A stretch of 59,995 nucleotides of DNA, taken from positions 1 through 59,995 of the forward strand of contig JAFDDB010000007.1 of the NCBI GenBank assembly GCA_019311115.1, given 5' to 3'. Shown here in pieces: positions 6,597 to 23,233 of this stretch. Every line of letters starts with the position of its first letter. The stretch's first letter is position 1. Origin of the DNA: Deltaproteobacteria bacterium. Lineage in GTDB: Bacteria; Myxococcota_A; UBA9160; SZUA-336. The notes beneath the pieces are model-generated. The model saw nothing but the letters and a program-made list of their open reading frames with translations. It did no database searches and was not told where the DNA came from. A program made the translations under genes and the position numbers.

Positions 6597-6640
6597 AGCG
6601 TATCTGGCCGGCCGGGATCTCCCGTATGACCGCGATCATG
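6597..6640 (-). promoter_or_regulatory. Putative Crp/Fnr-type class-II promoter P1 (P450)
   Basis: CATGAT-CGCG-GTCATA, 22-nt spacer, TACGCT (-10-like). Confidence 0.55.
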
Positions 6641-6716
6641 CGCGACCATCGGTCAGGGGTTCAGACATCGCGCGCGAGTACCGAGCGGAGTCCAGCAGCG
6701 GTGCAGCCCACGAGAT

Positions 6717-6745
6717 GCGGAAGCGGGCGGGCGGCCCGCTTCCGC
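6717..6745. terminator. Perfect 12-bp GC-rich hairpin (possible terminator, no U-tract)
   Basis: GCGGAAGCGGGC-GGGCG-GCCCGCTTCCGC. Confidence 0.4.
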
Positions 6746-6898
6746 GGAGGACGGCGCAGAGTGCAGGTGCATGAGTGCACTCCGGGCGAACGCGACGCGA
6801 GGACCAAACAGGCCGGGCGCAATCGCGGTCACGCCCAGGCCGATGGGTCAACTCGAGTCTTGCGCCATCCCCAATCCCGAGTGAAGTCTTCTCGAACC
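6717..6898 (-). ncRNA. Candidate small RNA from promoter P2, ending at a 12-bp hairpin
   Basis: Intergenic; promoter-like TATGAC-GCGA-GTCATA + TATCGT at 6948-6905; strong hairpin GCGGAAGCGGGC(loop)GCCCGCTTCCGC at 6717-6745; no convincing protein. Confidence 0.35.
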
Positions 6899-6904
6899 AG
6901 ACCC

Positions 6905-6948
6905 ACGATAGGAGACGCGCGTCGCCGGCAGGTATGACTCGCGTCATA
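6905..6948 (-). promoter_or_regulatory. Putative Crp/Fnr-type class-II promoter P2
   Basis: Perfect TATGAC-GCGA-GTCATA (minus strand), 22-nt spacer, TATCGT. Confidence 0.55.
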
Positions 6949-7022
6949 TCTGCGCGCACCTCTCCGGGCGAAGGGCCGGGCACTCCGAAGAAAACACCCA
7001 GTCGGGAAAAATCCGGGCCGGA

Positions 7023-7065
7023 CATGACCACCGTCATACTCGGCCACCCCGCCTCGGTCTAGCCT
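7023..7065 (+). promoter_or_regulatory. Putative Crp/Fnr-type class-II promoter P3
   Basis: CATGAC-CACC-GTCATA, 21-nt spacer, TAGCCT. Confidence 0.5.
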
Positions 7066-7071
7066 GCATCT

Positions 7072-7146
7072 ACTCCTGCGCGGGCAGGGAACGCAGGAGC
7101 AAGTGCTCCCCTGTGAGTGACAGATCGGTGTTGTTCACAGGGGAGC
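7072..7146 (+). ncRNA. Candidate structured small RNA from promoter P3
   Basis: Predicted start ~7072, followed at once by hairpins CTCCTGCG..CGCAGGAG (7073-7099) and GCTCCCCTGTGA..TCACAGGGGAGC (7105-7146, 12-bp perfect stem); antisense-side tail of 7180..7710. Confidence 0.35.
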
Positions 7147-7179
7147 CAACTCCTCGCCCCGAGTCGCCACGGCGATTCG

Positions 7180-7710
7180 TCACGACGGCTCGTCTCCGGA
7201 GTAGACGCGCACCAGCAAGCAGATCCCCGTCCCCGCCAGCCCGAGCGTGCACATGCCGGAGCCGGGAACCGCGAGCCAGATGAGCGCGTCCTTTGCGGCG
7301 GCCGTGCTTCCGATGCCCGGCGCGAGCAGCCCGGCGGCCAGCCAGAAGAAGCCGTACACCAGCGCTCCCGCGCCGAACAGCAAGCCCGAGCCCCGCGCAA
7401 GCCGACTCGGCGGACCGAGCAGCGCGAGCAGCAGCGACGCGGCCAGCGCGGCCGTCCCCAGGGCGTTCGCGTGCAGGTGCGCGCGCTTGAAGTAGGTCCA
7501 CGACTTGCGCACGACGGCCGCCGCAGCGTCGGTGTCCCCGTCGTAGGTGTCCTCGAGGACGGCCTGAGCCGAGTCCTCCAGGTAGCCCTTCATCAGACCT
7601 TCGGCGACTCCGAATGCGCCACCTAGCGTGAACCCGAACATGATCGCCGCAAGCGCGAGCAGGATTCCCGGTGCCAGGGGTCGAAGCCGTTCCCGTGCGA
7701 AGTCGTTCAT
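7180..7710 (-). CDS. Small integral membrane protein, function unknown
   Basis: Several hydrophobic segments (GILLALAAIMFGFTLGGAFG; GALVYGFFWLAAGLL); good ORF in operon orientation. Confidence 0.65.
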   Translation of the reverse strand: MNDFARERLRPLAPGILLALAAIMFGFTLGGAFGVAEGLMKGYLEDSAQAVLEDTYDGDTDAAAAVVRKSWTYFKRAHLHANALGTAALAASLLLALLGPPSRLARGSGLLFGAGALVYGFFWLAAGLLAPGIGSTAAAKDALIWLAVPGSGMCTLGLAGTGICLLVRVYSGDEPS

Positions 7711-7742
7711 GCGCTGCGTCCTCCTCTCGTGTCCTGTCTTGT

Positions 7743-8501
7743 CTAGCGGGCAGCCTGCCCTTCCGGCGCGAAATCGACCAGTACCCCCGCATCACTCTCA
7801 GGACGTTCGAGTAGGTTGAGTGCAGCTTCGATCACGGCGTGCTGTCGATCCGGCTCGTCGGCGGCGTCGAGCGGAAAGCCGTGCGCGAACGGAACCCAGA
7901 GAGCGCGCGGAGGCCTCACCCTCTCCGCCACGTACCGCAGCAGCTGCACGGTCACCGTCGAGATGCCCTGCCGCTCGAGCTCCGCCGCGACCAGGCCGAC
8001 CGCCTGGTTGCACATGGGTCAGACCGGGGCGAGCAGCGCGACGTCGACGCCGTCGTCGACGAGAGCGCGCGCGGCGGCGGGCGCGGTGTCGCGCACGAGC
8101 CGGCCAGGCGCCGTGATGCTCCCCATGAAGCTCAGGTGCCGGCGGTTCACGGAGCCGACCCGCCCCCGCGCTACCAGCTCGCGAATGCGGTCGAGCGGAA
8201 AGGCCAGGTTCGGATCCCGGCTCATCGCGGTGTGGTCGAAGGCCTCGCTGCGGTGCGTGTCGACGAGCACGTGAGCCTCGGTCTCCGACGGGATGTCGCG
8301 GAACGACGGATCTCCTCCCCGCCTGGACTCGTCGAACGGATCCTGGCCGGGGAGCACGAAGCCCGCGCTGGAGACGAGCGCCAGCCGGCTCTGCGAGAGT
8401 GGGCGGCGCAACGGCGTCCAGGGAATCGGATCGATCCGGCGCCAGCGGTACGTCCTCAGGAACGCGCGCAGGCCGAACGAGAACTCCGAGAGATCACCCA
8501 C
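7743..8501 (-). CDS. GrdB-like selenoprotein paralogue with in-frame UGA=Sec at 8019-8021
   Basis: ORFs 8019..8501 and 7743..8015 are in frame; readthrough gives ALLAPV-U-PMCNQAVGLVAAELERQGISTVTVQLL, aligning with 2496..3356. Confidence 0.87.
7991..8007 (-). promoter_or_regulatory. Bacterial SECIS-like hairpin downstream of UGA 8019-8021
   Basis: UGA-11nt-CCAGGC(GGUCG)GCCUGG. Confidence 0.78.
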
Positions 8502-8511
8502 GTCGACCGGC

Positions 8512-9093
8512 TCAGTCCCCCGGGGTCGCCTTCTTCCCGCGGTAGTGCTCGGCGTCGGCCCCGGTCGCCGGAGCGTGACGGACGTCGTCGGGCGTCAGGT
8601 CGCGCGTCCAGGCGGCGAACTCGAGCAGGATGCCGTCGGGATCGGCGAAGTAGATCGAGCGCACGAAGGTCGTGTCGTTGACGTCGTCGCTGACCTGGGA
8701 CGTGGTGTCGTCGTGGTTCACGACGCGAGTCACGCGAATGCCCCTCGCCTTCAGCCGCTCCCGATACTCCTCGATCTTCTCGGGCGCGACGTCGAACGCC
8801 ACGTGGTTCATCGAGCCGTGCGCCGACACGCCGTCGCCCTGCGCGACGCGCGGCGCCGCGATGCCCGGCGCCGCCTGCGGCGCGTCCGGAAACCAGAAGA
8901 ACGCCAGCGAATCACCGTTCCCGATGTCGAAGAAGAAGTGCTGACCGGATCCGTTCGGCAGGTCGATCGTCTTGGTGAGCGGCATGCCGAGCACGTTCGT
9001 GTAGAAGTCGACCGTGCGCGCCATGTCCTTGCAGACCAACGCCAGGTGGTTCACCCCGCGAAGCTCGAACTCCTTGTTGCCGCCCGGTGCCAT
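8512..9093 (-). CDS. VOC-family (glyoxalase/dioxygenase-like) protein
   Basis: GVNHLALVCKDMARTVDFYTNVLGMPL ... FADPDGILLEFAAW. Confidence 0.88.
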   Translation of the reverse strand: MAPGGNKEFELRGVNHLALVCKDMARTVDFYTNVLGMPLTKTIDLPNGSGQHFFFDIGNGDSLAFFWFPDAPQAAPGIAAPRVAQGDGVSAHGSMNHVAFDVAPEKIEEYRERLKARGIRVTRVVNHDDTTSQVSDDVNDTTFVRSIYFADPDGILLEFAAWTRDLTPDDVRHAPATGADAEHYRGKKATPGD

Positions 9094-9201
9094 CACGCGC
9101 CTCCTCGCCGGCGGATCGCCGGAAACCCGGGGGGCGGTTCGGGACCACCCCCGGCGCCCCAGTATGACAGGGCCCGGACGGGGCTGCCCTGCGCGTCCGC
9201 G

Positions 9202-9245
9202 TATGAGCGCGGTCATACCCGGGTCTGGCTCGCTGACAGTAGCGT
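9202..9245 (+). promoter_or_regulatory. Putative Crp/Fnr-type class-II promoter P4 (ferredoxin operon)
   Basis: TATGAG-CGCG-GTCATA, 22-nt spacer, TAGCGT; predicted start ~9252, just upstream of GGAGG and TTG 9271. Confidence 0.6.
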
Positions 9246-9270
9246 CAGTGACCCGGTTGGAGGCAATTCC

Positions 9271-9537
9271 TTGCGCCAGTTCAGCGTCGACGAATCCCTG
9301 TGCATCGGCTGCGGGCTGTGCCACGAGCGCGCGCCGGACAACGTCGAGATCCCCCCGGGGGCGGCCGCCGCGCGCGTGACGCTGCAGCCTCGGACCGACG
9401 AGGAAGAGGAGGCCTGCGAGGAGGCCGCCGACTACTGCCCGACGGGCGGCATCCACGAGGTCTCCGGCGACATGTCCGCGTCCACGCCCGATGACGAGAA
9501 GAGTTTGGCCGAGAACCTGGACGCGGCCGCATCCTAG
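9271..9537 (+). CDS. Small ferredoxin (CxxCGxC...CP type)
   Basis: FSVDESLCIGCGLCHERAPDNVEI...AADYCPTGGI; TTG start with GGAGG. Confidence 0.85.
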   Translation: MRQFSVDESLCIGCGLCHERAPDNVEIPPGAAAARVTLQPRTDEEEEACEEAADYCPTGGIHEVSGDMSASTPDDEKSLAENLDAAAS

Positions 9538-9589
9538 AAGCGACCGCCCTGCGCCCTACCCCTTCCGAACCACTCCGAGGGAGCACGAA

Positions 9590-10552
9590 ATGGCGACGAT
9601 CGAGGAGGTTCTCACCCCCGTCCGAACGCTCTGGAAGTTCGACTACGGGACCCACAACAAGGCGCTGCGCGACCTGTACGAGGTCGCGAAGAAGGAGCAG
9701 TGGAACGCGGCGACCGACGTGCCGTGGGACCGCGAGATCGACACGAGCGGCGACATCCTGGACCCGCGCCAGGACATGTTCCAGGACTTCGACTTCGTCA
9801 AGGCCCTGCCCGACGACCAGCGCACCGAGCTTTCGGTACGGCGCGCGGCCTGGACCCTGTCGCAGTTCCTGCACGGTGAGCAGGGAGCGCTGCTCTGCTG
9901 CGGCCAGTTGGTCGAGGTGGTGCCCGACATCGACGGCAAGCTCTACGCCGCCACGCAGGTGGTCGACGAGGCACGGCACGTCGAGGTCTTCTACCGCTAC
10001 ATCCAGCGGCTCGACCGGGTCTACCCGATCGACCCCAATCTGCAGGCCGTGATCAACGCGATCCTGCAGGCGGATCTCTGGCAGATGAAGTGCGTCGGCA
10101 TGCAGGTCATCGTCGAAGGGCTGGCGATGGGCTCCTTCAAGATCATGAAGGAGGGCACGCGCGACGAGCTGCTCAGGAAGATCGTGGAGCTGACGGCGAT
10201 GGACGAGGCGCGGCACGTCTCGTACGGCCTGATCTACATGAAGGACGAGCTGCCGCGTATGCCCGACCCGGACCGCGAGCGCGTCGAGGACTTCGCGCTC
10301 ATGGCCGTTCAGACGATGGTGAACAGTGGGCGTGGCAGCGGCGGCCAGAGCTCGCAGGCGGCGCTCTTCGCGGACCTCGACATCGACATGGCGGCCGCCG
10401 TGACCGAGGTCCAGGAGAAGATGGCCGACCCGGAGTTCCGGGCGCAGCGCCCCAACGCGTTCCGCGACTACGTGATTCCCCAGTTGCTCCGGCTCGGCAT
10501 CATCAGCGACCGGACCGCCCCGCAGTACCGCGAGATGGGCTTCGAGGTCTGA
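9590..10552 (+). CDS. Ferritin-like/diiron protein (R2/AurF-like fold)
   Basis: ATQVVDEARHVEVFYRYIQRL and AMDEARHVSYGL EXXH metal motifs. Confidence 0.75.
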   Translation: MATIEEVLTPVRTLWKFDYGTHNKALRDLYEVAKKEQWNAATDVPWDREIDTSGDILDPRQDMFQDFDFVKALPDDQRTELSVRRAAWTLSQFLHGEQGALLCCGQLVEVVPDIDGKLYAATQVVDEARHVEVFYRYIQRLDRVYPIDPNLQAVINAILQADLWQMKCVGMQVIVEGLAMGSFKIMKEGTRDELLRKIVELTAMDEARHVSYGLIYMKDELPRMPDPDRERVEDFALMAVQTMVNSGRGSGGQSSQAALFADLDIDMAAAVTEVQEKMADPEFRAQRPNAFRDYVIPQLLRLGIISDRTAPQYREMGFEV

Positions 10553-10575: not shown

Positions 10576-10592
10576 TGTGGCGAGGCGTCGCA
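10576..10592 (+). promoter_or_regulatory. Putative enhancer (UAS) for sigma54 activator
   Basis: TGTGGCG-AGG-CGTCGCA, centre 46 nt upstream of -24 GG. Confidence 0.45.
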
Positions 10593-10628
10593 GTCGGGGC
10601 GTCAGCGTGCGTCTCCCCGCGCCACGAG

Positions 10629-10644
10629 CGGTACACTGCTTGCA
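10629..10644 (+). promoter_or_regulatory. Putative sigma54 promoter (CBS gene 10684)
   Basis: CGGTACACTGCTTGCA; GG-N10-GC. Confidence 0.55.
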
Positions 10645-10683
10645 ATCTGCCCCGGTGGGGAGAAACGCAGAGGAGACCGCGCC

Positions 10684-11067
10684 ATGCGCGTACAGGACGT
10701 GATGCAGAAGGGAATCATCTCGGTCAGCCCAGAGCTCGCGCTGAAGGACTTCGAAGAGCTGCTCACCGGCGAGGACATCAGCGGCGCGCCCGTCACGGGC
10801 TCCGACGGCAAGCTCGTGGGCGTCGCGTCCAAGACCGACATCGTCCGCGCCTTGGCCGAGGACGCCAGCCAGCGCGACATCCTCGCGCCCGAACTCTCGG
10901 TCGAGGACATCATGACGACCGACGTCATCACGGTGGCGCCCGACGCCGAGCTGCGCGCCGTGGCCCGCATGATGATCGACGGGAACCTGCACCGAGTGAT
11001 CGTCACCGACGGCGACGACGTGCTGGGGATCGTGACGACCTTCGACCTGCTCTCGGCCGTCTACTGA
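10684..11067 (+). CDS. CBS-domain protein
   Basis: MRVQDVMQKGIISVSPELALKDFEELL...VEDIMTTDVITVAPDAEL. Confidence 0.88.
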   Translation: MRVQDVMQKGIISVSPELALKDFEELLTGEDISGAPVTGSDGKLVGVASKTDIVRALAEDASQRDILAPELSVEDIMTTDVITVAPDAELRAVARMMIDGNLHRVIVTDGDDVLGIVTTFDLLSAVY

Positions 11068-11074
11068 AGCGGGA

Positions 11075-11536
11075 TCACTCCGGCTCGACCGACGTCGTGA
11101 CCACGTCCTCGCTGAGGACGCGCGGGTTGAGCGAGATGCGCTCCTCTTCGGCCATGTCCTCGCGCAGCATGCGCACGAAGCCCCACGCGATCAGCGCGAA
11201 CACCAGGATGTTCGGCGAGCCGCCGCTGCCCCTGTTCCACATCTCGGTCATGATCTCGCGCTGGCGCGCGTGCTCTTCGTGCATGCGCTCGACGCGCTCG
11301 GGACCCCACGCGTCCGCGTCGAGCAGGGCCGGGACCAGCACGCGTTCTTCCCGGTCCAGGTGCTGGTTGAAGCGGTTTCCGAGCTCGCGGACCTGCTCCT
11401 TCAGCTCGTCCGACGCGGCGTACCTTCCCTGCAGGACGCTGCGGGACAGCACTTCGACGCGGAGCAGCATGCTGCGGAGGACTTCGTGCTCGGCGAGCAC
11501 CTCTTCGAGCACCTCGATCGGGCCCAGCTTCTCCAT
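11075..11536 (-). CDS. Hemerythrin-like (HHE) domain protein
   Basis: EHEVLRSMLLRVE...FNQHLDREERVLVPALL...MHEEHARQREIM. Confidence 0.78.
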   Translation of the reverse strand: MEKLGPIEVLEEVLAEHEVLRSMLLRVEVLSRSVLQGRYAASDELKEQVRELGNRFNQHLDREERVLVPALLDADAWGPERVERMHEEHARQREIMTEMWNRGSGGSPNILVFALIAWGFVRMLREDMAEEERISLNPRVLSEDVVTTSVEPE

Positions 11537-11560
11537 GGATCCTCTTCCCACCAGTGCGAC

Positions 11561-11854
11561 TCAGTACGAGACGGTGGCCTCGAGCCGCCCGCCCTCGCCC
11601 TCGATCACGATCAGCCGCGACATGCAGGGCATGCAGTAGACGCGGTCGCCCGGCCGCAGCTCTCGCGTCGAGCGGATCACTACCTTGCAGACGGGACAGA
11701 CTACCTCGTTCGGGGCCAGCGGGTCGGGCGGTCCGCCCCAGCGCCGGTAGAAGCGACGGTACTTGACGGGCACCTCGTCGAAGCCGGTGTCTTCCAGGAT
11801 GAAGCGCTGGCGCGGCGCGGCCTTCTCTGCCTGCTCGAGCAGCGGATCAGTCAT
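11561..11854 (-). CDS. Small zinc-ribbon protein
   Basis: CPVC...CMPC in a 97-aa ORF, operonic with neighbours. Confidence 0.65.
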   Translation of the reverse strand: MTDPLLEQAEKAAPRQRFILEDTGFDEVPVKYRRFYRRWGGPPDPLAPNEVVCPVCKVVIRSTRELRPGDRVYCMPCMSRLIVIEGEGGRLEATVSY

Positions 11855-12626
11855 TCGTGAACCCCAGGCGCTCGACGGCGGCCAGGTAGAGGCGGCCCAG
11901 GTCGGTCTGCTCCGAGCGCTCGATTCCCAGGTCCGCGACGCTCTCCGAGAAGGTCTCGAGCACCAGGTAGTCGAGCTCCTTCTTCACCTCGCCGAGCCGC
12001 GAACGGACGTGCGGGGCGCGCGCCAGGCAGCGGCCGATCTCGTTCTCGCCGAAGCCCATGTGCCGCCGCTCGTCCTTGATGATCCCCTCGAGCACCTCGC
12101 GCGTCACGGGATCGGTGCGGCGCGCGTGCGTCTGGAAGGCGGCGAACTCCATCGCCTCGAGAATCACGTTCTGCGCGAACAGCGCGGCTTCCCAGTCTTT
12201 GCTCGCGACCAGCTCGAGCAGCCGGCGCTTGAAGAGCTTGAGCGGATGGGCGGCGCGGCGCTCGATCTCGCCCTCGGGGTCGCTCACCCCGATCGCCTGC
12301 AGGCGGTGGTAGAGGACTTCGAGGTGCCTCGCCTCGTCGACGACCTGCGTTGCCAGGAAGATCTTGGCCTCGCGGTTCGGCGCGAACAGGATCAGGCCAC
12401 TGGCACCCTCGAGCGCCGCGAGTTCGCCGACGCAGTAGTTGCAGAGCGTCGTGATGAGCCGGTCGCGCTGCGCTTCGTCGATCTCCGGCTCCTCCATCTC
12501 GTGGTGCCCATAGGGACGACCCGACAGGTAGCCCTCGACGGACTGGAACCAGAACTCGAAGGAGTGGACCTCTTCTAGGAACTCACTCGGCTCGAGCGCG
12601 TGAACCTCCTGGGTCGAGTCCGGCAC
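11847..12626 (-). CDS. Ferritin-like diiron protein, paralogue of 9590..10552
   Basis: FLATQVVDEARHLEVLYHRLQ; KDERRHMGFGENE. GTG start overlaps upstream uORF stop (TAGTG). Confidence 0.75.
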   Translation of the reverse strand: MPDSTQEVHALEPSEFLEEVHSFEFWFQSVEGYLSGRPYGHHEMEEPEIDEAQRDRLITTLCNYCVGELAALEGASGLILFAPNREAKIFLATQVVDEARHLEVLYHRLQAIGVSDPEGEIERRAAHPLKLFKRRLLELVASKDWEAALFAQNVILEAMEFAAFQTHARRTDPVTREVLEGIIKDERRHMGFGENEIGRCLARAPHVRSRLGEVKKELDYLVLETFSESVADLGIERSEQTDLGRLYLAAVERLGFTND

Positions 12627-12676
12627 TACGGCGTCGCCGGCGTCTGGATCGAGTACGCGGCCAGGGAATCGGACAT
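12626..12676 (-). CDS. Candidate 16-aa leader peptide (MSDSLAAYSIQTPATP)
   Basis: ATG preceded by GGAGG; stop TAG overlaps the GTG of the ferritin-like gene. Confidence 0.4.
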   Translation of the reverse strand: MSDSLAAYSIQTPATP

Positions 12677-12710
12677 CTCGCTTCCTCCGCTGGGAGACCG
12701 ACCCCCATGG

Positions 12711-12726
12711 AGCAATCGGCGTGCCG
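12711..12726 (-). promoter_or_regulatory. Putative sigma54 promoter (ferritin-like/Zn-ribbon/hemerythrin operon)
   Basis: Minus strand CGGCACGCCGATTGCT; GG-N10-GC. Confidence 0.6.
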
Positions 12727-12821
12727 CCCGCGCCGCAGCCGGGCAGCCGCGTGACGCCTCGACTGCCGCGTAATGTCCTATTTCTCCCCTAGAGATGGGC
12801 CATCCTGTCACGCATCTAGCC

Positions 12822-13520
12822 TCAGAGGAGCTCGGCGGCGGCGGTCACGGGCGCGGGCATCTCGAGCGAGGAGACGACCCGCAGCTCCCCGCGGCCGGCC
12901 AGAACGCGAGCCGCCAGCGCGTCGAGCACGTCGCCATCGCGGTCTTCCGCCGAGACGACCCGCCCCGTCTCGGGGTCGAGGCGTCCCCGGACCGAGGCGC
13001 TGGCCAGGACCCACAGCACCCGGACGCGCCCGCGGCGCGCGGCTTCGAGGATGCGGTCGAGGCCGACGATCACCGCCGCGCTGTCGGGCGGAGCCGGCTT
13101 GTCGGTCTGGAGCAGCGCCAGCTGGCGCGCCAGCTCGCGCAGCGCGAACCCGTCCGCCACGTACACCCGTTCTCGCGGCGGGACCCTCAGCCGGTACGCG
13201 CGGACGCCGCGGCGATCGAGAAAGACCGCCAGCCCGCGGAACGACTCGGGCGCGTCGCGCAGGTCGTGGTCGAGCTCGGTCAGGCGGTCGGCCCACGCGG
13301 GCACGTCCGCCGCGGGCACGCCCTCGGCCTCGAGCCGGTCCGCCGCGTGGGCCACGGCCTGGCCGTAGCGCAGCGCGTTCTGCATCCGCTCGGGGAATGC
13401 CGCCGGCATGGGCAGGTAGATCGTGACGCACGGGTGCGGCTCGCAGCCCGCGAGGGCTGCGAGATCCTCGAGCGCCGGCTCGCGAAGTTCGGTGGGGGAC
13501 GAGGCCCGAACGAGTGTCAC
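12822..13520 (-). CDS. Bacterial archaeo-eukaryotic release-factor-like (baeRF family) protein
   Basis: CVTIYLPMPAAFPERMQNALRYG...LAVFLDRRGVRAYRL; GTG start at 13520. Confidence 0.65.
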   Translation of the reverse strand: MTLVRASSPTELREPALEDLAALAGCEPHPCVTIYLPMPAAFPERMQNALRYGQAVAHAADRLEAEGVPAADVPAWADRLTELDHDLRDAPESFRGLAVFLDRRGVRAYRLRVPPRERVYVADGFALRELARQLALLQTDKPAPPDSAAVIVGLDRILEAARRGRVRVLWVLASASVRGRLDPETGRVVSAEDRDGDVLDALAARVLAGRGELRVVSSLEMPAPVTAAAELL

Positions 13521-13570
13521 GGCCGGACCGCGCGGATGGGTAGGCTGTGCGGCACGGTCCGCTCCGAAAG

Positions 13571-13586
13571 AGCAAGCTGCGGGCCA
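13571..13586 (-). promoter_or_regulatory. Putative sigma54 promoter (baeRF-like gene)
   Basis: Minus strand TGGCCCGCAGCTTGCT; GG-N10-GC. Confidence 0.55.
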
Positions 13587-13624
13587 GCCCTGGAAGCCGC
13601 TGCAGCGAGCCGCCCGGGCGGACG

Positions 13625-13641
13625 TGCGGCGCGGCGTCTCG
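13625..13641. promoter_or_regulatory. Putative shared UAS between divergent sigma54 promoters
   Basis: TGCGGCG-CGG-CGTCTCG; centre 13633 is 48 nt from the first G of both -24 elements (13585 and 13681). Confidence 0.45.
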
Positions 13642-13679
13642 GAGTGCACCCTTCCCGGGGCGTGCCGCCACACGCGCGC

Positions 13680-13695
13680 TGGCACCGACGTTGCA
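13680..13695 (+). promoter_or_regulatory. Sigma54 promoter (CBS gene 13731)
   Basis: TGGCACCGACGTTGCA, exact match to TGGCAC-N5-TTGCW. Confidence 0.75.
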
Positions 13696-13730
13696 GCTCC
13701 GCCTGGCGGGTCCGGCGGAAAAGGAGAGGT

Positions 13731-14151
13731 GATGAAGCACGTGAAGGACATCATGGTCCGGGAAGTGGCTACGTTGAAGCGCAACGACGAGCTCAGCCTC
13801 GCCGACGACGTGATGCGGCTCGGACGCATCCGGCACCTGCCGGTGGTGGACGAGGACACGGGCCAGCTCGTCGGCATCGTGAGCCAGCGCGACCTGTTCC
13901 GCGGGGCGCTGGTCCGCGCCTTCGGCTACGGCGAGAACGCCCAGCGCCGGGTCATGAAGACGATCCCCGTCAAGGAGGTGATGACGACCGAGCCCGTCAC
14001 CACCACTCCCGACACCGCGCTCCGTGACGCCGCCCGCCTGATGCTGGACAAGAAGATCGGGTGTCTTCCGGTGTTGGAAGGCGACAAGCTCGCCGGCATC
14101 CTGACCGAGGCGGACTTCGTGGCGCTCTCCGCTCACGACAAGGGCGCGTAG
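13731..14151 (+). CDS. CBS-domain protein
   Basis: MKHVKDIMVREVATLKRNDELSLADDVM...VKEVMTTEPVTTTPDTALRDAARLML. Confidence 0.88.
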
Positions 14152-14336
14152 CCGGCAGCGGCCTACACCGGGAGACGTCGGGCTCGCGACACGCGTGCTC
14201 GACACAGCTTGACACGAGACGCGACGTCCAAAGGGTTCTCTCACGAGAGATGAGCGGGCCGGGAGGCGAAGACTCCGCCGACCCCACTGAGACGAGTGCG
14301 AGCCCGATCCGGGTCTCGCTCAACTGGAGAGAGAAG

Positions 14337-14819
14337 ATGACACGAGAAGAGCCCAAGTCAGTCAGCCGCTGGACGCCGTTCGCGGACGAGTTCTTCCAGC
14401 CCGAGGGTCTGTTTCGTGAGCTCGGCGCGCCGTTCGGACGGCTGGTCCGTCACCTCGGTGATCCGGCCGCGGTTCGGAGCGGGGCGCGCGCGGGGTTCTT
14501 GGCGCCCGCGCTCGACGTGACCGAGAGCGCCGACGGCTACGTCGTGACGGTCGAGCTTCCGGGCGTCAACAAGGACGACGTCAGCGTCGAGATCCACGAC
14601 AACGTCCTGACCGTGCGCGGCGAGAAGCGCAGCGAGCACGAAGAGGACAAGGACAAGAAGCACTGGGTGGAGCGCACGTACGGTGCGTTCAGCCGGTCGA
14701 TCCGCCTGCCCGAGGGCGTGGGAGAGAAGGACCTGAAGGCGTCGTTCAAGGACGGCGTGCTCCAGATCGAGATCCCCAAGGCCGAGGAGACCAAGCCGCG
14801 AACCGTCTCGATCAAGTAG
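14337..14819 (+). CDS. Hsp20/alpha-crystallin small heat-shock protein
   Basis: PALDVTESADGYVVTVELPGVNKDDVSVEIHDNVLTVRGEKR...FKDGVLQIEIPK. Confidence 0.93.
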   Translation: MTREEPKSVSRWTPFADEFFQPEGLFRELGAPFGRLVRHLGDPAAVRSGARAGFLAPALDVTESADGYVVTVELPGVNKDDVSVEIHDNVLTVRGEKRSEHEEDKDKKHWVERTYGAFSRSIRLPEGVGEKDLKASFKDGVLQIEIPKAEETKPRTVSIK

Positions 14820-14892
14820 CGGCGCCCGGTTGACGCCCGCGCGCGGCCGCATGCCACGCATCCGGCCGTGCCGCGGGTTATCCTGAGCGGGC

Positions 14893-16419
14893 ATGACGAT
14901 CTTCCTGCTCGCCCTGCTCGGAATCGTGGTCGCGCTCGCGGCCTGGGACGTGTTCCAGCGCAAGCACTCGATCCTGCGCAACTTCCCGATCATCGGGCAC
15001 TTCCGCTACTGGCTCGAGTGGATCGGTCCCGAGGTCCGGCAATACCTCGTCACCGGCAACGACGCGGAGCGGCCGTTCAGCCGCGACCATCGCCGCTGGG
15101 TCTACGCCTCGGCGAAGCGCGAGAACCGCTACTTCGGCTTCGGAACCGACAACGACTTGGAGACATCGCCGAGCTACCTGATCATCAAGCACGAGACGCT
15201 CGGCTATCCCGGCCCGCCGCTCGAGGCGCACGCCGGCGCACCGCCCGCGCTCCCCTGCGCCAAGGTGCTGGGCGCGCACCGCGAACGGGCGCAGTCGTTC
15301 CGTCCGGCCTCGCTCGTCAACGTGTCGGGCATGAGCTTCGGCTCGCTCGGCGGCCACGCGATCGAGGCGCTCAACCGGGGGGCGAAGCTCGCGGGCTGCC
15401 TGCAGGTGACCGGGGAGGGCGGACTGTCACCCCACCACTGCCACGGAGGAGACCTCGTCTTCCAGGTGGGAACCGGCTACTTCGGCTGCCGCGACGAACA
15501 CGGCCACTTCGACCTGGAGCGGCTCGCCGCCGTCTGCGACGAGAACCCCGTCCGGGCCATCGAGATCAAGCTGAGCCAGGGCGCCAAGCCCGGGCTCGGC
15601 GGCTACCTGCCCGCGGCCAAGGTGACGCCCGAGATCGCGGCGGCTCGGGGCGTCCCGGTCGGCCGCGCCTGCGCCAGTCCGCCGCGCCACTCGGCGTTTG
15701 GCGACCCCGACGAGATGCTCGACTTCGTCGAGCGCGTGGCCGAGCGCACCGGATTGCCGGTGGGCGTCAAGTCCGCGGTCGGCGAAGTGGACTCCTGGCT
15801 CGAGATCGCGCGGCTGATGGCGACCACGGAGCGCGGCCTGGACTTCATCACCATCGACGGGGGCGAGGGCGGAACCGGCGCGGCGCCGCTGGTCTCGAGC
15901 GACCACGTCGCGCTGCCGTTCAAGCTCGCGTTCAGCCGCGTCTACCGCATCTTCGCGGAGCGCGGGCTGCACGAGAAGATCGTCTTCGCCGGCTCCGGAA
16001 GGCTCGGCTTTCCCGAGGAGGCGCTCCTCGCACTAGCGCTCGGCTGCGACCTGGTGCACGTGGGACGCGAGGCGATGCTCGCGCTGGGCTGCATCCAGGC
16101 GCAGCGCTGCCACACCGGCCGCTGCCCTGCGGGCGTCGCGACGCAGAACGCATGGCTTCAGCGCGGGCTCGATCCCGCGGACAAGGCCCAACGAGTCGCC
16201 AACTACGTGTCGACGCTTCGCTTCGAGCTGATCCAGCTGGCACAGAGCTGCGGCGTGGCGCACCCCGCACTGGTCCCGACGGATCGCCTGGAGTTCGTCG
16301 ACGACCGCTTCGGGTCGCGAACCGCGCGCGAGGTCTTCGACTACCGCGAGAGCTGGGGACTGCCGGCGGCGGCCGACCGCGAGCGGATCGAGAAGCTCAT
16401 GGAGCACCCCGCGAGCTGA
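14893..16419 (+). CDS. FMN-binding glutamate-synthase-family protein (GltB C-terminal-like)
   Basis: MSFGSLGGHAIEALNRGAKLAGC, TGEGGLSPHH, FITIDGGEGGTGAAPL, CHTGRCPAGVATQ. Confidence 0.9.
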   Translation: MTIFLLALLGIVVALAAWDVFQRKHSILRNFPIIGHFRYWLEWIGPEVRQYLVTGNDAERPFSRDHRRWVYASAKRENRYFGFGTDNDLETSPSYLIIKHETLGYPGPPLEAHAGAPPALPCAKVLGAHRERAQSFRPASLVNVSGMSFGSLGGHAIEALNRGAKLAGCLQVTGEGGLSPHHCHGGDLVFQVGTGYFGCRDEHGHFDLERLAAVCDENPVRAIEIKLSQGAKPGLGGYLPAAKVTPEIAAARGVPVGRACASPPRHSAFGDPDEMLDFVERVAERTGLPVGVKSAVGEVDSWLEIARLMATTERGLDFITIDGGEGGTGAAPLVSSDHVALPFKLAFSRVYRIFAERGLHEKIVFAGSGRLGFPEEALLALALGCDLVHVGREAMLALGCIQAQRCHTGRCPAGVATQNAWLQRGLDPADKAQRVANYVSTLRFELIQLAQSCGVAHPALVPTDRLEFVDDRFGSRTAREVFDYRESWGLPAAADRERIEKLMEHPAS

Positions 16420-16428
16420 CGAGCCGCG

Positions 16429-18111
16429 TCAGCCGGCCAGCATGTCGGCGCGGAACAGGCCCGGCAGGACCTCGAAGGCGATCACGCCCGCGTTCACGAG
16501 TTCGAGCGCGCTCTCGCGCATCGGCTGCAGGCCGGCGCCCTGCGCGACGGCGCGCAGCTCGTCGAGCGCCGCGTGGCGCGAGACCGCCAGCCGGAGCTCG
16601 CGCGACGAGGGAAGCAGCTCACCCACGGCGGTGCGGCCGAAGTGGCCGAGCCCACGGCAGCGCTCACAGCCCTCTCCGCGAAACGTCCGGAAGCCCTCGG
16701 GGGCTCCCCGGGGGAAGACCTCGGACAGCAGCTCCGCGTCCGGCTCGCACTCCGCGCGGCAGCCCTCGCAGATCCGGCGCGCCAGGCGCTGCGCGAACAC
16801 GGCCAACAGCTCGCCGGCGATCGAGTTCGGATGCATGCCCAGGTCGTAGAGCCGCTGCACGGCGTCCACGGAGTCGTTCGCGTGCACGGTGGAGAGCACC
16901 AGGTGGCCCGTCTGCGCGGCGCGCAGGGCCTCGAGCGCGGTCTCGGGATCGCGGATCTCGCCGACCATGATCACGTCCGGGTCCTGGCGCACGAAGTGGC
17001 GCATGGCGTCGGCGAAGCCGAAGCCCAGCTCGGGGCGGACCTGCGTCTGCTCGACGCCGTCGACCGAGTACTCGATCGGGTCCTCGACCGAGATGATCTT
17101 GCGCGTGGTGTCGGCGGCGAGTACCTGGAGTCCCGCGTAGAGCGTGGTCGACTTTCCGCTCCCGGTGGGCCCCGCCACCAGTACGAGACCGGACGGACTG
17201 CGGAGCAGCCGCCGGCAGCGCGCCGCGAGCCCGGGCGAGAAGCCGAGCGTTTCGATCGAGAACAGGTCGCGGCCCTGCGGCAGCAGGCGCACGATCGCGT
17301 ACTCGCCGTGCAGCGTCGGCTGGGTCTGCACGCGCAGGTCGAAGTCGCGCCCGCCGATTCGCGCCGCCATCCGTCCGCCCTGCGGCCGGCGGCGCTCCGC
17401 GATGTCGAGCCTCGCCCGCACCTTGAGCACGTTGACGATGCCCTGCAGCTGGTGCGACTGGATCTGGTAGTGCGACACCTCGCGCAACGCACCGTCTACA
17501 CGCAGCCGGACCTGCACCCGGTCCCGGAACCGCTCCAGGTGCACGTCGCTGGCGCGCTCGCCGGCGGCGTCGGCCAGGATCGCGTCGAGCAGTCCCACGT
17601 GTGCGGGCTCTACGCGCACGTCGTGGTCGAGCAGGTCCGACCCGTACGCCACCTGTGGCCGCACCGGCCGTCCGGTCCCGAGCTGCCCCAGGTCGAGGGC
17701 CCACTGCACGCGCCGGAAGTCCGTCGGCGTGACGAGCTTCAGCTCGACGCTCTCGCACGCGAGCGCGTCGGCCAGGTCGAGCACGCGCGCGTCGGGATCG
17801 CAGGTCACGACGACCAGCACACCCTGCCTGCGCAGCACCGGGATCACGCGCTTGCGGTCCTGGTACGGCCGCGGGACCGAGCGCACGACCTGCGGGTCGA
17901 TCGAGTCGAGCAGCGCCTCGAACTCCGCGAAGGCGATCCCGCAGTGGCCCGCCAGGCGCCGGTAGGCCTCGCGTTCGTCCAGGAAGCCGCGGCGGATCAG
18001 CACCTCGCCCAGCAGCTCGCCGCTCTCCTCGGCGGCCTCCTCTGCGCTCTCGACGTCGGCCGGCTTGACCAGCCCCGACGACTCGAGCCACGCCTCGAAG
18101 CGGTCGCTCAC
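16429..18111 (-). CDS. GspE/PilB-type secretion ATPase
   Basis: GPTGSGKSTTLYAGL Walker A, EDPIEYSVDGVEQTQV, RQDPDVIMVGEIRDPETA. GTGA overlap with upstream gene stop. Confidence 0.93.
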   Translation of the reverse strand: MSDRFEAWLESSGLVKPADVESAEEAAEESGELLGEVLIRRGFLDEREAYRRLAGHCGIAFAEFEALLDSIDPQVVRSVPRPYQDRKRVIPVLRRQGVLVVVTCDPDARVLDLADALACESVELKLVTPTDFRRVQWALDLGQLGTGRPVRPQVAYGSDLLDHDVRVEPAHVGLLDAILADAAGERASDVHLERFRDRVQVRLRVDGALREVSHYQIQSHQLQGIVNVLKVRARLDIAERRRPQGGRMAARIGGRDFDLRVQTQPTLHGEYAIVRLLPQGRDLFSIETLGFSPGLAARCRRLLRSPSGLVLVAGPTGSGKSTTLYAGLQVLAADTTRKIISVEDPIEYSVDGVEQTQVRPELGFGFADAMRHFVRQDPDVIMVGEIRDPETALEALRAAQTGHLVLSTVHANDSVDAVQRLYDLGMHPNSIAGELLAVFAQRLARRICEGCRAECEPDAELLSEVFPRGAPEGFRTFRGEGCERCRGLGHFGRTAVGELLPSSRELRLAVSRHAALDELRAVAQGAGLQPMRESALELVNAGVIAFEVLPGLFRADMLAG

Positions 18112-19250
18112 TGGGACACCTGCGGCATGTCGATCAGGGCGCGCAGCTCGTCGAGCTCGGCTTGAACGTCGGGCGGGACGTTCACGCCGCCCGAGCCGGA
18201 GTAGCCAAGCACGGTGTACTCCTCGAGCAGCAGGTAGGCCTCGCGCGCGACCGGCTCGCGCGGGGCCATGCGGATGGCCGTCTTCAGCGCGAACTCGGCC
18301 TCGGACACCCAGTACGAGCGCTGGGTCCAGGCGTCGGTGATGCCGATCAGGTAGAGCGCCTCGGCGGTCTCCGCGCCCGGCTCGGGGTCCGAGTCCAGGT
18401 AGCGGTGCAGCACGCTCGAGGCCGCCAGGTCGTAGATGACGCCGGCGCGGTCGGCGGCGTAGCCGCGGGCCTTCTGTCCGTCGGCGATCAGGATGCGCGC
18501 GCGTCCGACGGTCGGCGCCAGCTGCAGCTGCCCCTGGATCTCGGGAAGCGCCACCAGCCACGCGCGGAGGTTCCGCTGCATGTAGTGGGGCACGTCCGGG
18601 CGCGCCGAGAGCCGCGCAAGCGCGGCTCTCGGGCGCTCGACGTCGCGGCGGACGCGCAGGCTGATGGTCAGGTAGTCGAGCAGGTCGCCGCCCAGGTCGA
18701 ACGTGACCGGCGAGGACTCCGGGTCGGCGAAGAGCACCTCGTAGGAACCGAGCGCCGCGTCGAAGCGGCGCGTCGCCATCTGGAGCCGAGCCCGCTGCCG
18801 CACGGACAGGCCGGCGACCTCGGCGCGCGCGAAGAGCCGGTCGGCCAGCGGCGACTCGCGGTCGCTCGGCAGGCGCGAGTGACACACGATGCAGGTGTTG
18901 GTCATCTGGTGCAGCGCGTAGCGCGCCTCGGGGTACTCGCCGCGCGCGAAGCGCTCGGCGGTGCGCGCGGCGTCCTGGGCCAGCGAGCCGCCCAGGTAGC
19001 GGAAGCCGGCGTCGCGCTTCGTCGCGTGCTTGCCGAGCTCGGCCGCGGCATCGGCGAGCTCGTCCACGGCCGCTCCGATCTCCTCGCGCCGTGCGGGATC
19101 GGCGAAGGTCTCCTCTTCGAGACTCGCGGGCAGGACCCGAACCAGCGGCTCGACGATCCGGTTCATCAGCGCACGCGTCCCGTCCTCTCCGCGGACGGCG
19201 TGCGCCGCAACCACGAGGCAGACCACTGAAACGACCCCGGCAACGCGCAT
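18108..19250 (-). CDS. Exported protein with single CxxCH (cytochrome c-like)
   Basis: Signal-like N-terminus MRVAGVVSVVCLVVAAHAVRG; TNTCIVCHSR heme motif. Confidence 0.7.
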   Translation of the reverse strand: MRVAGVVSVVCLVVAAHAVRGEDGTRALMNRIVEPLVRVLPASLEEETFADPARREEIGAAVDELADAAAELGKHATKRDAGFRYLGGSLAQDAARTAERFARGEYPEARYALHQMTNTCIVCHSRLPSDRESPLADRLFARAEVAGLSVRQRARLQMATRRFDAALGSYEVLFADPESSPVTFDLGGDLLDYLTISLRVRRDVERPRAALARLSARPDVPHYMQRNLRAWLVALPEIQGQLQLAPTVGRARILIADGQKARGYAADRAGVIYDLAASSVLHRYLDSDPEPGAETAEALYLIGITDAWTQRSYWVSEAEFALKTAIRMAPREPVAREAYLLLEEYTVLGYSGSGGVNVPPDVQAELDELRALIDMPQVSQ

Positions 19251-19337
19251 TCTGTCTCCCCCTTCCCCTGTCTTATCGGCGAAGGGTGCAGGCGACCTGT
19301 GATCCCGCAAGTCCCGTCGGCGTGACCGGCGCCCCGA

Positions 19338-19354
19338 TGTGGCGTGTCGCCACA
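19338..19354 (+). promoter_or_regulatory. Putative UAS
   Basis: Perfect inverted repeat TGTGGCG-TGT-CGCCACA, centre 47 nt upstream of -24 GG. Confidence 0.55.
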
Positions 19355-19391
19355 GCCCGGAGCGCGTGGAGCGCACAGAGCACGGCGCGCC

Positions 19392-19407
19392 GGGCACGTC
19401 GCTTGCT
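19392..19407 (+). promoter_or_regulatory. Putative sigma54 promoter (cytochrome c/USP/kinase operon)
   Basis: GGGCACGTCGCTTGCT; GG-N10-GC. Confidence 0.65.
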
Positions 19408-19461: not shown

Positions 19462-19890
19462 ATGCGCGTGTTCCCGGTCCTCGCGGCCGCCCTGCTGATC
19501 GCCTGCACTTCCGCCGAGCGAGGCGGCGGGTCCGAACCGTCCGCCGGGTCCGCTCCCCCCGCCGAGGTCGGAGGCCAGCTGTTCGGCGCCTACTGCGCCT
19601 CCTGTCACGGCATGGACGCCACTGGGAACGGGCCCGCGGCTGCGAAGCTCGACCCGCGACCCGCCAACCTGACACAGATCGCCCGGCGCAACGGGGGCCG
19701 ATTCGACGCCGAGCAGGTGGCCGCCTACATCGACGGGCGATCCTGGATCGAGTCTCACGGCTCGAGCGAGATGCCGGTCTGGGGCCGGCCGCTCGACGAC
19801 CGCAACGAGAAGATCCTGACCACCGAGACGCTGCTCTCGCCCGTCTCGATCCACGACATCGTCGAGTACCTGCGCACGATCCAGCGCTAG
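19462..19890 (+). CDS. c-type cytochrome lipoprotein
   Basis: Lipobox-like LLIAC; YCASCHGMDATGNGP; SEMPVWG. Confidence 0.85.
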   Translation: MRVFPVLAAALLIACTSAERGGGSEPSAGSAPPAEVGGQLFGAYCASCHGMDATGNGPAAAKLDPRPANLTQIARRNGGRFDAEQVAAYIDGRSWIESHGSSEMPVWGRPLDDRNEKILTTETLLSPVSIHDIVEYLRTIQR

Positions 19891-19903: not shown

Positions 19904-20323
19904 ATGTTCTCGAAGATCCTGGTGCCGATCGACTTCTCTCCGCACTCGGACCACGCCCTCGAGTGGGCGATCGGACTCGCCAAGAACTCGGGCGGCTCAC
20001 TCGAACTGGTCCACGCGATCCACATGCCGCACGACATCCAGATGACGGGCGAGTGGTGGGCGACGCTACGCGCGCGCGCGGTCGAGCGTTTGGACGTGTG
20101 CATCGACGAGGCCGATCGGGCGGGGGTCCCGTGCCAGGCGCACCTGCTCGACGAGCCTCCGGCCGAGGCGATCCTGAAGGCGGCCGAGTCCTCGCACGCC
20201 GACCTGATCGTGATGGGAAGCCACGGGCGCGGAGCCATCGGGCACCTGCTGCTCGGCGGCGTGGCCTCGAAAGTGCTCCGCCTGTCCGAGATTCCGGTGC
20301 TGACGCTCCGGAAGGAATCCTGA
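19904..20323 (+). CDS. Universal stress protein (UspA family)
   Basis: KILVPIDFSPHSDHALEWA...DLIVMGSHGRGAIGHLLLGGVASKVL. Confidence 0.93.
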   Translation: MFSKILVPIDFSPHSDHALEWAIGLAKNSGGSLELVHAIHMPHDIQMTGEWWATLRARAVERLDVCIDEADRAGVPCQAHLLDEPPAEAILKAAESSHADLIVMGSHGRGAIGHLLLGGVASKVLRLSEIPVLTLRKES

Positions 20324-20330
20324 CCGGGGG

Positions 20331-22007
20331 TTGCCGGAAGGCTCCGCGCTGCGGGAGGCTGTCGCCGTGAAGCCGCCGGCCGACCCCATCGACCGCTCCT
20401 GGCCCGAGGCGCTCGGGCGCGCCGAGGCCTACCCGCACGATCCCGATGCAGGAACAGGGATCGAGCGGATCCAGACCCACCTGTCCTGGGTCTACCTGAC
20501 GGCGGAGCGCGTCTACAAGTTCCGCAAGGACGTGGACGTGGGCTTCGTGGACTTCAGCACGCGGGCGTCCCGCCGCCGCGACTGCCTGGACGAGGTGCGG
20601 CTGAACCGCCGGCTGGCGCCCGACGTGTACCTGGGAGTGGCCGAGGCGCGGATCGTCGACGGTGCGCTGCGCGTCGGCGAGGTGGGCGAAGAGTTCTCGG
20701 GCCCCGAAGGCGAGGACGCGGAGCCCTGCGTCGTCATGCGGCGCCTGCCCGATGGCCGCGACGCCCTGAGCCTGCTGGACCGCGGCGACCTGACGCCCGG
20801 ACAGATCGACGTGCTCGCGGCGCGGATCGCGCGGTTCCACGGCGAGCACGCGCTCGTGCAGGCCATCGACGACGAAGCCTGGGCGCGGCGGATCTGCGGC
20901 CCGGTGCACGACAACTTCGAGGCGCTGTCGGCCTTTCCCGAGGCGATCGTGCCGCGCGCCGCGCTCGCCCGCATGCAGCGGCGCAACGCCGCGTTCGAGC
21001 AGACACGGCTGCCGAGACTGCTCTCGCGCGTGCGATCGGGACACGCCGTCGACGGACACGGAGACCTGCACCTGCAGCACGTCTGGTACGAGGCCGGCTC
21101 TGCGGAGCCCCGGATCATCGACTGTCTCGAGTTCGACGAAGAGCTGCGCCAGTTCGACACCGCCTGCGACGTGGCCTTCCTGGCCATGGACCTGCGCTAC
21201 CGGGGACGCGCCGGCTGGGCCGAGCGCCTGCTGCGCCGCTACGCCCGGGACGCGGACGACTTCGGGCTCTACGCGGTGGTCGACTACTACGCGGCATACC
21301 GCGCCGCGGTCCGCGCCAAGGTGGCGGCCATCGCGTCACAGGACGAGCGCGTGTCGCGCCAGCAGCGCGCGGCCTCCGGACCGAGCGCGCGCCGGCACGT
21401 ACTGCTGGCCGACCGCCTGCTCGAAGCGCGCGCACCCGGCCCGCTGATCGCCGTGTGCGGGATCGTGGGCGCGGGCAAGACCACCGTCGCGGAGCTGATC
21501 GCCGACGAGCTTCGCGGAGCGGTCGTCTGCGCGGATCGGGTGCGAAAGCGCAGCGCCGGGCTCGATCCGCTGGCGAGCGCGCGGGCCGCGCCAGACGCCG
21601 GCCTCTACACGCCCGACCAGCGCGCGCGCACGTACACGGCGCTGCTCGAGCGCGCGCGGGACGTCGTCGGCTCGGGGCGCGTGGCGGTGCTCGACGCCAC
21701 ATTCAGCGAGACCGCGGAGCGCGACCGCTGCCGGGCCTGGGCCCGTGAGCACGGCGTGACCGCACTGCTGGTACAGGTGGAGTGCGACCGTGCGGTTGCG
21801 CTGCGGCGGCTCGAGGCGCGCCGCACACGCGGAGGCGATGCCTCGGACGCCGGGCCCGAGCTGCATGCGCGCAGTGCCGAGCGCTTCGAGAAGCCGACCG
21901 AGTGGCCCGGGGAACTCCACATGCGCGTGGACACGTCGCGGCGCGGTTGGCGCCGTGACGCGCGAGCGGCCGTGCGGCGGCTCGCCGCCGGCAAGGGATC
22001 CGCGTGA
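20331..22007 (+). CDS. Bifunctional aminoglycoside-phosphotransferase-like/ATP-binding (AAA_33) protein
   Basis: VDGHGDLHLQHVW (APH loop) plus CGIVGAGKTTVAELIADEL Walker A. Confidence 0.85.
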   Translation: MPEGSALREAVAVKPPADPIDRSWPEALGRAEAYPHDPDAGTGIERIQTHLSWVYLTAERVYKFRKDVDVGFVDFSTRASRRRDCLDEVRLNRRLAPDVYLGVAEARIVDGALRVGEVGEEFSGPEGEDAEPCVVMRRLPDGRDALSLLDRGDLTPGQIDVLAARIARFHGEHALVQAIDDEAWARRICGPVHDNFEALSAFPEAIVPRAALARMQRRNAAFEQTRLPRLLSRVRSGHAVDGHGDLHLQHVWYEAGSAEPRIIDCLEFDEELRQFDTACDVAFLAMDLRYRGRAGWAERLLRRYARDADDFGLYAVVDYYAAYRAAVRAKVAAIASQDERVSRQQRAASGPSARRHVLLADRLLEARAPGPLIAVCGIVGAGKTTVAELIADELRGAVVCADRVRKRSAGLDPLASARAAPDAGLYTPDQRARTYTALLERARDVVGSGRVAVLDATFSETAERDRCRAWAREHGVTALLVQVECDRAVALRRLEARRTRGGDASDAGPELHARSAERFEKPTEWPGELHMRVDTSRRGWRRDARAAVRRLAAGKGSA

Positions 22008-23233
22008 GCGAGCCCCCTTCGCTCCGGCGCAGCCTGAACCTCCCCCTGCTCGTCCTGTACGGACTGGGCACGACGGTCGGAGCGGGCATCTACGCGCTGC
22101 TCGGCGAGGTAGCGAACCGGTCGGGCATGTACGCGCCGGTGTCGTTCGCGGTGGCGGCGGGAATGGCCGCGGCCACCGCGTTCTCGTTCGCGGAGCTGTC
22201 GTCGCGCTTCCCGCGCAGTGCCGGCGAGGCCGTCTACGTGCGCGAGGGCCTCGGAACGCGCGTGCTGCCGATCGCGGTCGGTGTGCTCGTCGTGCTCTCG
22301 GGGAGCGTGTCGTCGGCCACGATCGCGAACGGCTTCGTCGGCTACCTGGGCGAGCTGGTCGAGGTCCCGCGCGAGGTGGCCATCCTCGGACTGCTGCTCG
22401 CGCTCGGCGGGATCGCCGCCTGGGGCATCCGCGCTTCGGTCGTGACGGCGGCGGTGGTCACGCTGCTCGAGGTCGCGGGCCTGCTCGCCGTACTCTGGGT
22501 GTGCCGCGACGGGTTCTCGACGCTTCCCGAGCGCTGGGTGGAGCTCGTCCCGGGGTTCGAGCTCGGCGCCTGGCAGGGGATCTTCGCGGCCTCGTTCCTG
22601 GCCTTCTACGCGTTCCTGGGCTTCGAGGACATGGTGAACGTGGCCGAGGAGGTCCGCGACGCCCCGCGCACGCTGCCGGTCGCGATCATCGCGACGCTGC
22701 TGCTGACGACCGTCCTGTACATGGGGATCGCGACGGCGGCGGTGCTGAGCCTGCCCCCGCAGGACCTGGCCCGAAGCGCGGCTCCGCTCGCCACGCTCTG
22801 GCAGCGGGCCACCGGAGGATCGGGCGCCCTGATCGGCTCGATCGGCGTGCTCGCCATGCTGAACGGAGCGCTGATCCAACTGATCATGGCCTCGCGCGTG
22901 CTGTACGGGCTGGCGGACCAGGGAGAGCTGCCGCGGAGCCTTGCCCGGATCCACCCCCGCACGCGAACCCCGGTGATCGCGACCGCGGCGGTGACGGTGG
23001 TCGTCTGCGCGCTCGCCATCGGCTTTCGCCTGGCGTTCCTGGCGGGGATCACGTCGCTGCTCACGCTGATGGTCTTCGCGCTGGTGAACCTGTCGCTCTG
23101 GCGCGTGAAGCTCCGCGACCCGGATCCGGGGGCCGGCGTGCGGACGTACCCGATCTGGGTGCCGGTGACGGGCTTCGTGGTGAGCGCGGGATTCCTGGCG
23201 ATCGAAGCCTCGCGGCAGCTCTTCGGCGGGTAG
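22004..23233 (+). CDS. APC-family amino acid permease
   Basis: GLGTTVGAGIYALLGEVA, many TM helices; ATGA-type overlap with the kinase gene. Confidence 0.88.
   Translation: MSEPPSLRRSLNLPLLVLYGLGTTVGAGIYALLGEVANRSGMYAPVSFAVAAGMAAATAFSFAELSSRFPRSAGEAVYVREGLGTRVLPIAVGVLVVLSGSVSSATIANGFVGYLGELVEVPREVAILGLLLALGGIAAWGIRASVVTAAVVTLLEVAGLLAVLWVCRDGFSTLPERWVELVPGFELGAWQGIFAASFLAFYAFLGFEDMVNVAEEVRDAPRTLPVAIIATLLLTTVLYMGIATAAVLSLPPQDLARSAAPLATLWQRATGGSGALIGSIGVLAMLNGALIQLIMASRVLYGLADQGELPRSLARIHPRTRTPVIATAAVTVVVCALAIGFRLAFLAGITSLLTLMVFALVNLSLWRVKLRDPDPGAGVRTYPIWVPVTGFVVSAGFLAIEASRQLFGG

Follow-up and report, generated by a model that had tools for sequence, protein, structure and literature searches.

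A putative globin-kinase to NtrC-type sigma54 regulon with a shared palindromic enhancer site in a class of Myxococcota_A

The 59,995 nucleotides analysed here (contig JAFDDB010000007.1 of a Deltaproteobacteria bacterium placed in Myxococcota_A; hereafter the window) carry several sigma54-type -24/-12 promoters preceded by a common palindrome, together with the genes of a globin-coupled histidine kinase (23275..24540) and of an NtrC-type response regulator (24666..26069). We consider it very probable, judging from the sequence, that the kinase and the regulator govern a sigma54 regulon in which the palindromes serve as the enhancers (upstream activating sequences, UAS) of the regulator, and the same switch appears to recur across about sixty related species. 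The three plus-strand palindromes and -24/-12 elements reported in an initial annotation of this DNA lie where it had placed them (Table 1), and the distances from palindrome centre to -24 GG, measured again, are likewise 46, 48 and 47 nt. Two promoters of the set had been missed, one on the minus strand (12726..12711) and one in front of the regulator gene (24662..24677, plus strand). The cores at GG 10630, 13681, 19393 and 12725 (minus strand) are all exact matches to GGYACN5TTGCW.

The motif emerges without supervision from the class as a whole. Orthologues of the regulator are present in 61 of the 91 genomes of the same class, and their neighbourhoods (1.2 Mb fetched in all) hold 79 exact sigma54 cores against 15 in the reversed control. 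Palindromic motif discovery, begun from random 17-mers in the 77 usable regions upstream of sigma54 promoters near regulator orthologues, converged on TGgGGCgnnncGCCcCA, that is TGnGGC-N5-GCCnCA, with a log likelihood of 165 against 15-26 for shuffled regions. A held-out model, trained on the 61 promoters that belong neither to the window nor to its family, returned the same motif, and its scores for the window sites are given in Table 1; the middle palindrome (13625..13641) is the weakest of the three first described, at 7.7 bits. The shared palindrome of the initial annotation thus stands, but its consensus was too narrow and has to be widened to YGnGGC-N5-GCCnCR: the narrow core (GGCGN3CGNC plus sigma54 element) was discarded as a class-wide mark, being only mildly above its control (about 73 against 48) because the true consensus is TGnGGC-N5-GCCnCA, whereas the refined composite gave 69 hits against 2. 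This composite occurs in 37/61 genomes with an orthologue and in 5/30 without one (Fisher p = 1e-4). The target types that recur across the class are CBS proteins, universal stress proteins (Usp), HSP20, cytochrome c, hemerythrin, di-iron proteins and Coq4; a paper on the Desulfovibrio sigma54 regulome (PMC4641369) mentions neither TGTGGC nor these target types.

Within the genome, the palindrome alone had to be rejected as a mark of the regulon, its counts being at or under those of the reversed control (22 sites against 24 with up to two mismatches, and 7 against 12 for perfect TGNGGCN5GCCNCA). The composite GGCGN3CGNC-N{30,50}-GGYACN5TTGC, on the other hand, is found exactly three times in 4.17 Mb, always in the window, and never in the control, so that the information resides in the pairing of palindrome and promoter. 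When the motif model is trained on other families, the three window promoters obtain empirical p values of 0.00075, 0.0047 and 0.0004 for having a site 45-51 nt away, and none of the 17 further exact sigma54 cores in the genome scores above 7.7 bits at any upstream position. The enrichment at -24/-12 promoters that was to be expected fails genome-wide, since the sigma54 promoters of this genome are for the most part those of other activators. It does hold near the class orthologues of the 24666 gene, where 64% of the sigma54 promoters have a site scoring 8 bits or more, a level reached in 6% of 131-nt stretches at random positions. Chance seems scarcely credible as the source of the pattern: at 70% GC, palindromes and GG-N10-GC pairs do arise, and the palindrome by itself is no commoner than its reversed control, but the composite, the held-out model, the helical phasing described below and the class-wide conservation speak against this explanation, which the class-wide result refutes. 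Only one further match to the full rule was found in the genome, a candidate on another contig (C180:866-933, L275), where a perfect palindrome, TGTGGCATGTTGCCTCA, lies 46 nt before a sigma54 core, TGGCACAGGGATTGC, upstream of a gene that looks sulfatase-like by eye.

The position of the sites is equally constrained. Once similar promoters are removed, 56 non-redundant sites are left: 27 of these stand 46-50 nt from the GG (2.4 expected), and the remaining 29 lie at whole helical turns from 47 (10.5 bp, offset 0.1 nt, nominal Rayleigh p = 3e-7). The near-fixed spacing first noted for the window therefore holds at about 47 nt and widens into a rule of 47 nt plus whole helical turns. The regulator promoters, which with two exceptions took no part in motif training, were analysed separately, and their sites gather at the same distances: 46-51, about 68, about 78 and about 89 nt. 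At one orthologous locus (L227:17199-17321), divergent sigma54 promoters have two palindromes in common, each of which would act in both directions, at distances of 46-47 and 77-78 nt. On a different reading, the protein on the palindrome would be a distinct repressor or a nucleoid protein with a share in the control of the sigma54 promoters, and one of the window sites (13656..13672) does lie 17 nt before the -24 GG, where a bound protein could block the polymerase. We hold this to be most improbable: a preferred placement some 72 nt ahead of the start site, with alternatives phased by 10.5 bp, is the geometry of an activator, and the format of the palindrome, N5 flanked by half-sites of 6 nt with TG and CA outermost, fits NtrC-family sites. 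The 13656..13672 site itself, absent from the initial annotation, is stronger than the 13625..13641 palindrome and lies 31 bp downstream of it; it may work in tandem with that palindrome, or else serve to repress.

The palindrome is also tied to this particular regulator through the regulator gene itself. A site of at least 8 bits is present within 200 nt upstream of the gene in 51 of 64 orthologues, against 3 of 20 paralogous NtrC genes (about 41-48% identity), for which the better of both ends was taken. The pattern GGYAYN6TGC is found in 59/65 regulator upstream regions, where about 0.05 is expected per region, and 55/65 combine a sigma54-like core with the site. The recognition helix of the helix-turn-helix (HTH) domain, GI[ND]R[RK]TLYRR, is nearly invariant among the orthologues. 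Another NtrC-type activator, encoded elsewhere, could be imagined to read the palindrome, the local regulator being then linked to it by position only: the genome encodes many NtrC-like proteins and three of the window promoters are 5-14 kb from the regulator gene. Yet the site is rare at paralogues, the composite depends on the presence of the orthologue, and motif and HTH are conserved together, so that we judge this alternative unlikely. The suggestion that one NtrC-type activator, plausibly the product of 24666..26069, reads the palindrome is thus supported by both comparisons (orthologues against paralogues, genomes with against genomes without the orthologue), with binding as the prediction that follows.

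The regulator promoters differ from those of the targets. Their -12 element is usually VTGC and not TTGC, and among the 43 that carry a phased site none begins this element with T. A T is found there in 46/80 other phased promoters (p = 5e-12), a comparison that is partly circular since the motif was trained on TTGC promoters, and in 114/365 of all such cores, a comparison that is not circular. The closed complexes of sigma54 are weaker when this T is lacking, and the autoregulatory promoter may be tuned in this way for later or lower firing. The promoter core in the window (24662..24677) covers the ATG at 24666, so translation of the regulator probably starts at the ATG at 24690 or later. The site was also considered as part of a sigma70 promoter, and this was rejected: when 52 orthologues were checked for -10/-35 elements, no -10 at a fixed place turned up except within the palindrome itself, and a sigma54 core fits better.

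On the input side, the kinase that adjoins the regulator gene contains a protoglobin domain (PF11563, E=1e-37), in which we take the His of GEAHERVGL to be the proximal histidine and also note the Tyr of AAFYRHL (located by eye, with residue roles presumed). Protoglobin is encoded in 56/91 genomes of the class, mostly next to the regulator. At some ten loci protoglobin is replaced in the partner kinase by a PAS, GAF-PAS or PAS-hybrid architecture (L245, L247, L252, L255, L257, L258, L227, L234 and L165 are loci with a PAS/GAF partner), and most of them keep the DNA site, which makes the DNA code more stable than the input domain.

We propose the following mechanism. The globin-coupled kinase would sense oxygen or a related haem ligand and control phosphorylation of the regulator. 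In its active form the regulator would bind TGnGGC-N5-GCCnCA at a distance of 47 nt from the -24 GG, some 72 nt ahead of the start site, or else one to several whole helical turns further upstream, a placement in which its AAA+ ring would face the sigma54-RNA polymerase, remodel it and open the promoter. Its targets in the window would be the CBS gene, the CBS-HSP20 pair, the di-iron/hemerythrin operon and the run of cytochrome c, Usp, AAA33 and permease genes that includes the kinase, while the regulator gene and its Usp neighbour probably have their own, weakened sigma54 promoter. With the kinase in a target run and the regulator behind its own promoter, both halves of the sensor would stand in a feedback loop. 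We infer binding, activation and the oxygen signal from the DNA alone, and several observations weigh against this interpretation: (i), the genome yields at least 15 NtrC-like hits at E<=1e-60, another of which could in principle read the site. (ii), the promoter p values assume independence although the genomes are related, so that those for phasing and position are nominal. (iii), the regulator promoter of the window is a weak sigma54 match and has a second site, at 60 nt, that is out of phase and, (iv), oxygen is not proven as the common signal, a minority of genomes having a PAS kinase.

The genes of the locus (Table 1) are those of an oxygen or stress response, and the operon structure given here is the one predicted from the sequence. 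The HSP20 frame as called overlaps the CBS gene and its true start is probably downstream. Just upstream of the island (5331..10552) are P450, glyoxalase-family and AurF-type di-iron oxygenase genes, and AurF homologues recur in 15 orthologous neighbourhoods. The open reading frames (ORFs) at 12773-13426 (plus strand) and 12822-13877 (minus strand) have no Pfam match and were taken as non-coding or uncertain; a 355-aa ORF at 18162..19229 (plus strand), also lacking a Pfam match, overlaps minus-strand candidates.

Table 1. Promoters, palindromes and genes of the locus (positions in the window; bit scores from the held-out model unless given as a range or for the regulator site).
Feature	Position	Strand	Details
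UAS palindrome 1 TGTGGCGAGGCGTCGCA	10576..10592	+	centre 46 nt before GG 10630; 12.1 bits
Sigma54 promoter CGGTACACTGCTTGCA	10629..10644	+	core GGTAC-N5-TTGCA
Paired CBS-domain protein, 127 aa	10684..11067	+	predicted target gene; Pfam PF00571
Hemerythrin	11075..11551	-	minus-strand operon; Pfam PF01814
Ferritin-like di-iron protein (MiaE_2/aldehyde-decarbonylase-like)	11847..12626	-	first gene of minus-strand operon; Pfam PF13794
Sigma54 promoter CGGCACGCCGATTGCT	12711..12726	-	core 12725..12711
UAS of minus-strand promoter CGTGACAGGATGGCCCA	12796..12812	-	79 nt before GG, in helical phase; 9.7-10.6 bits (9.7 held-out)
UAS palindrome 2 TGCGGCGCGGCGTCTCG	13625..13641	+	48 nt before GG 13681; 7.7 bits
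Second UAS of 13680 promoter CGGGGCGTGCCGCCACA	13656..13672	+	17 nt before GG; 11.2 bits
Sigma54 promoter TGGCACCGACGTTGCA	13680..13695	+	core GGCAC-N5-TTGCA
Paired CBS-domain protein, 139 aa	13732..14151	+	predicted target gene; Pfam
HSP20 small heat-shock protein	14061..14819	+	Pfam PF00011
UAS palindrome 3 TGTGGCGTGTCGCCACA	19338..19354	+	perfect; 47 nt before GG 19393; 15.5 bits
Sigma54 promoter GGGCACGTCGCTTGCT	19392..19407	+	core GGCAC-N5-TTGCT
c-type cytochrome	19462..19890	+	first of five-gene run ending in sensor kinase; Pfam PF13442/PF00034
Universal stress protein	19904..20323	+	Pfam PF00582
AAA_33 kinase-like protein	20331..22007	+	
Amino acid permease	22004..23233	+	
Globin-coupled histidine kinase (protoglobin-HisKA-HATPase)	23275..24540	+	PF11563+PF00512+PF02518
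UAS upstream of regulator gene TGTGCCAAATCACCACA	24577..24593	+	78 nt before GG 24663; 16.5 bits
Putative autoregulatory sigma54 promoter AGGCATGAGTCCTGCT	24662..24677	+	-12 = CTGC, as in many orthologues
NtrC-family response regulator (REC-AAA+ sigma54 activator-Fis HTH)	24666..26069	+	PF00072, PF00158, PF02954
Tandem universal stress protein	26082..26969	+	12 nt after regulator gene

A broader proposal, to which we give slightly less than an even chance, is that the class possesses a previously undescribed oxygen-response regulon with a positional grammar of its own (47 nt plus helical turns), a regulator promoter weakened by VTGC, so that the threshold of autoregulation would exceed that of the targets, and protoglobin and PAS sensors that are interchangeable on one DNA code. 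The positional rule found for the class is itself predictive: the oxygen/stress regulon of about sixty uncultured species can be listed from sequence, along with the places where the regulator is expected to bind. It also makes testable claims on sigma54 activation, namely that at short range the enhancer is confined to one side of the helix and that the promoter of the activator gene is tuned, through its -12 element, to be the weaker one.

Several known systems offer points of comparison. The enterobacterial NtrC/glnA enhancers share the 17-bp dyad with an N5 spacer, sigma54 and an AAA+ activator, but they serve a nitrogen signal, have other half-sites and usually lie further upstream. The closest likeness is to NmpRSTU, the oxygen-utilisation regulon of Myxococcus xanthus (PMC11841059, PMC6211767), which also has an NtrC-like response regulator, a protoglobin histidine kinase and sigma54 promoters, a regulon with CBS, universal stress protein, hemerythrin and oxygen-respiration genes, and regulator and kinase genes that belong to their own regulon. 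The DNA site is different: NmpR recognises GCGCA-N5-TGCGC, usually as two sites 14-15 bp apart, whereas here TGnGGC-N5-GCCnCA often stands single and paired sites are 20-21 or about 31 bp apart, centre to centre. The NmpR consensus was rejected as the site here, as the window has no exact match and no enrichment with up to two mismatches (153 against 161 expected). The wiring differs as well. NmpU works through the hybrid kinase NmpS and NmpT, while here the kinase and regulator genes are adjacent; neither an NmpS-type hybrid kinase nor an NmpT-type double receiver is among the annotated genes of the locus, no genome-wide search having been made for them, and pilR, an NmpR target, was not seen. 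In the sample of the phylum outside the class, matches were to the kinase core only. We thus regard the system as parallel to NmpRSTU: it would work like NmpR, a likeness that does not by itself amount to membership.

The kinase itself has the globin-coupled architecture of AfGcHK from Anaeromyxobacter sp. Fw109-5 (PMC8697598), whose globin chain (5ohe) its globin domain matches at E=3.6e-9. AfGcHK passes its phosphoryl group to an NmpT-like double receiver (PMC6211767), and the genes that it controls in Anaeromyxobacter are unknown (PMC11841059). If the kinase is active with oxygen bound, as AfGcHK is, and hands its phosphoryl group straight to the regulator, oxygen would switch the regulon on, the reverse of M. 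xanthus, where one NmpRSTU target is upregulated in hypoxia (PMC11841059). Should the broader proposal be true, direct wiring from globin kinase to NtrC without NmpS would also invert the oxygen polarity with respect to Myxococcus. A further testable claim that the positional rule yields is that the polarity of the oxygen signal may depend on the presence of an NmpS-like inverter.

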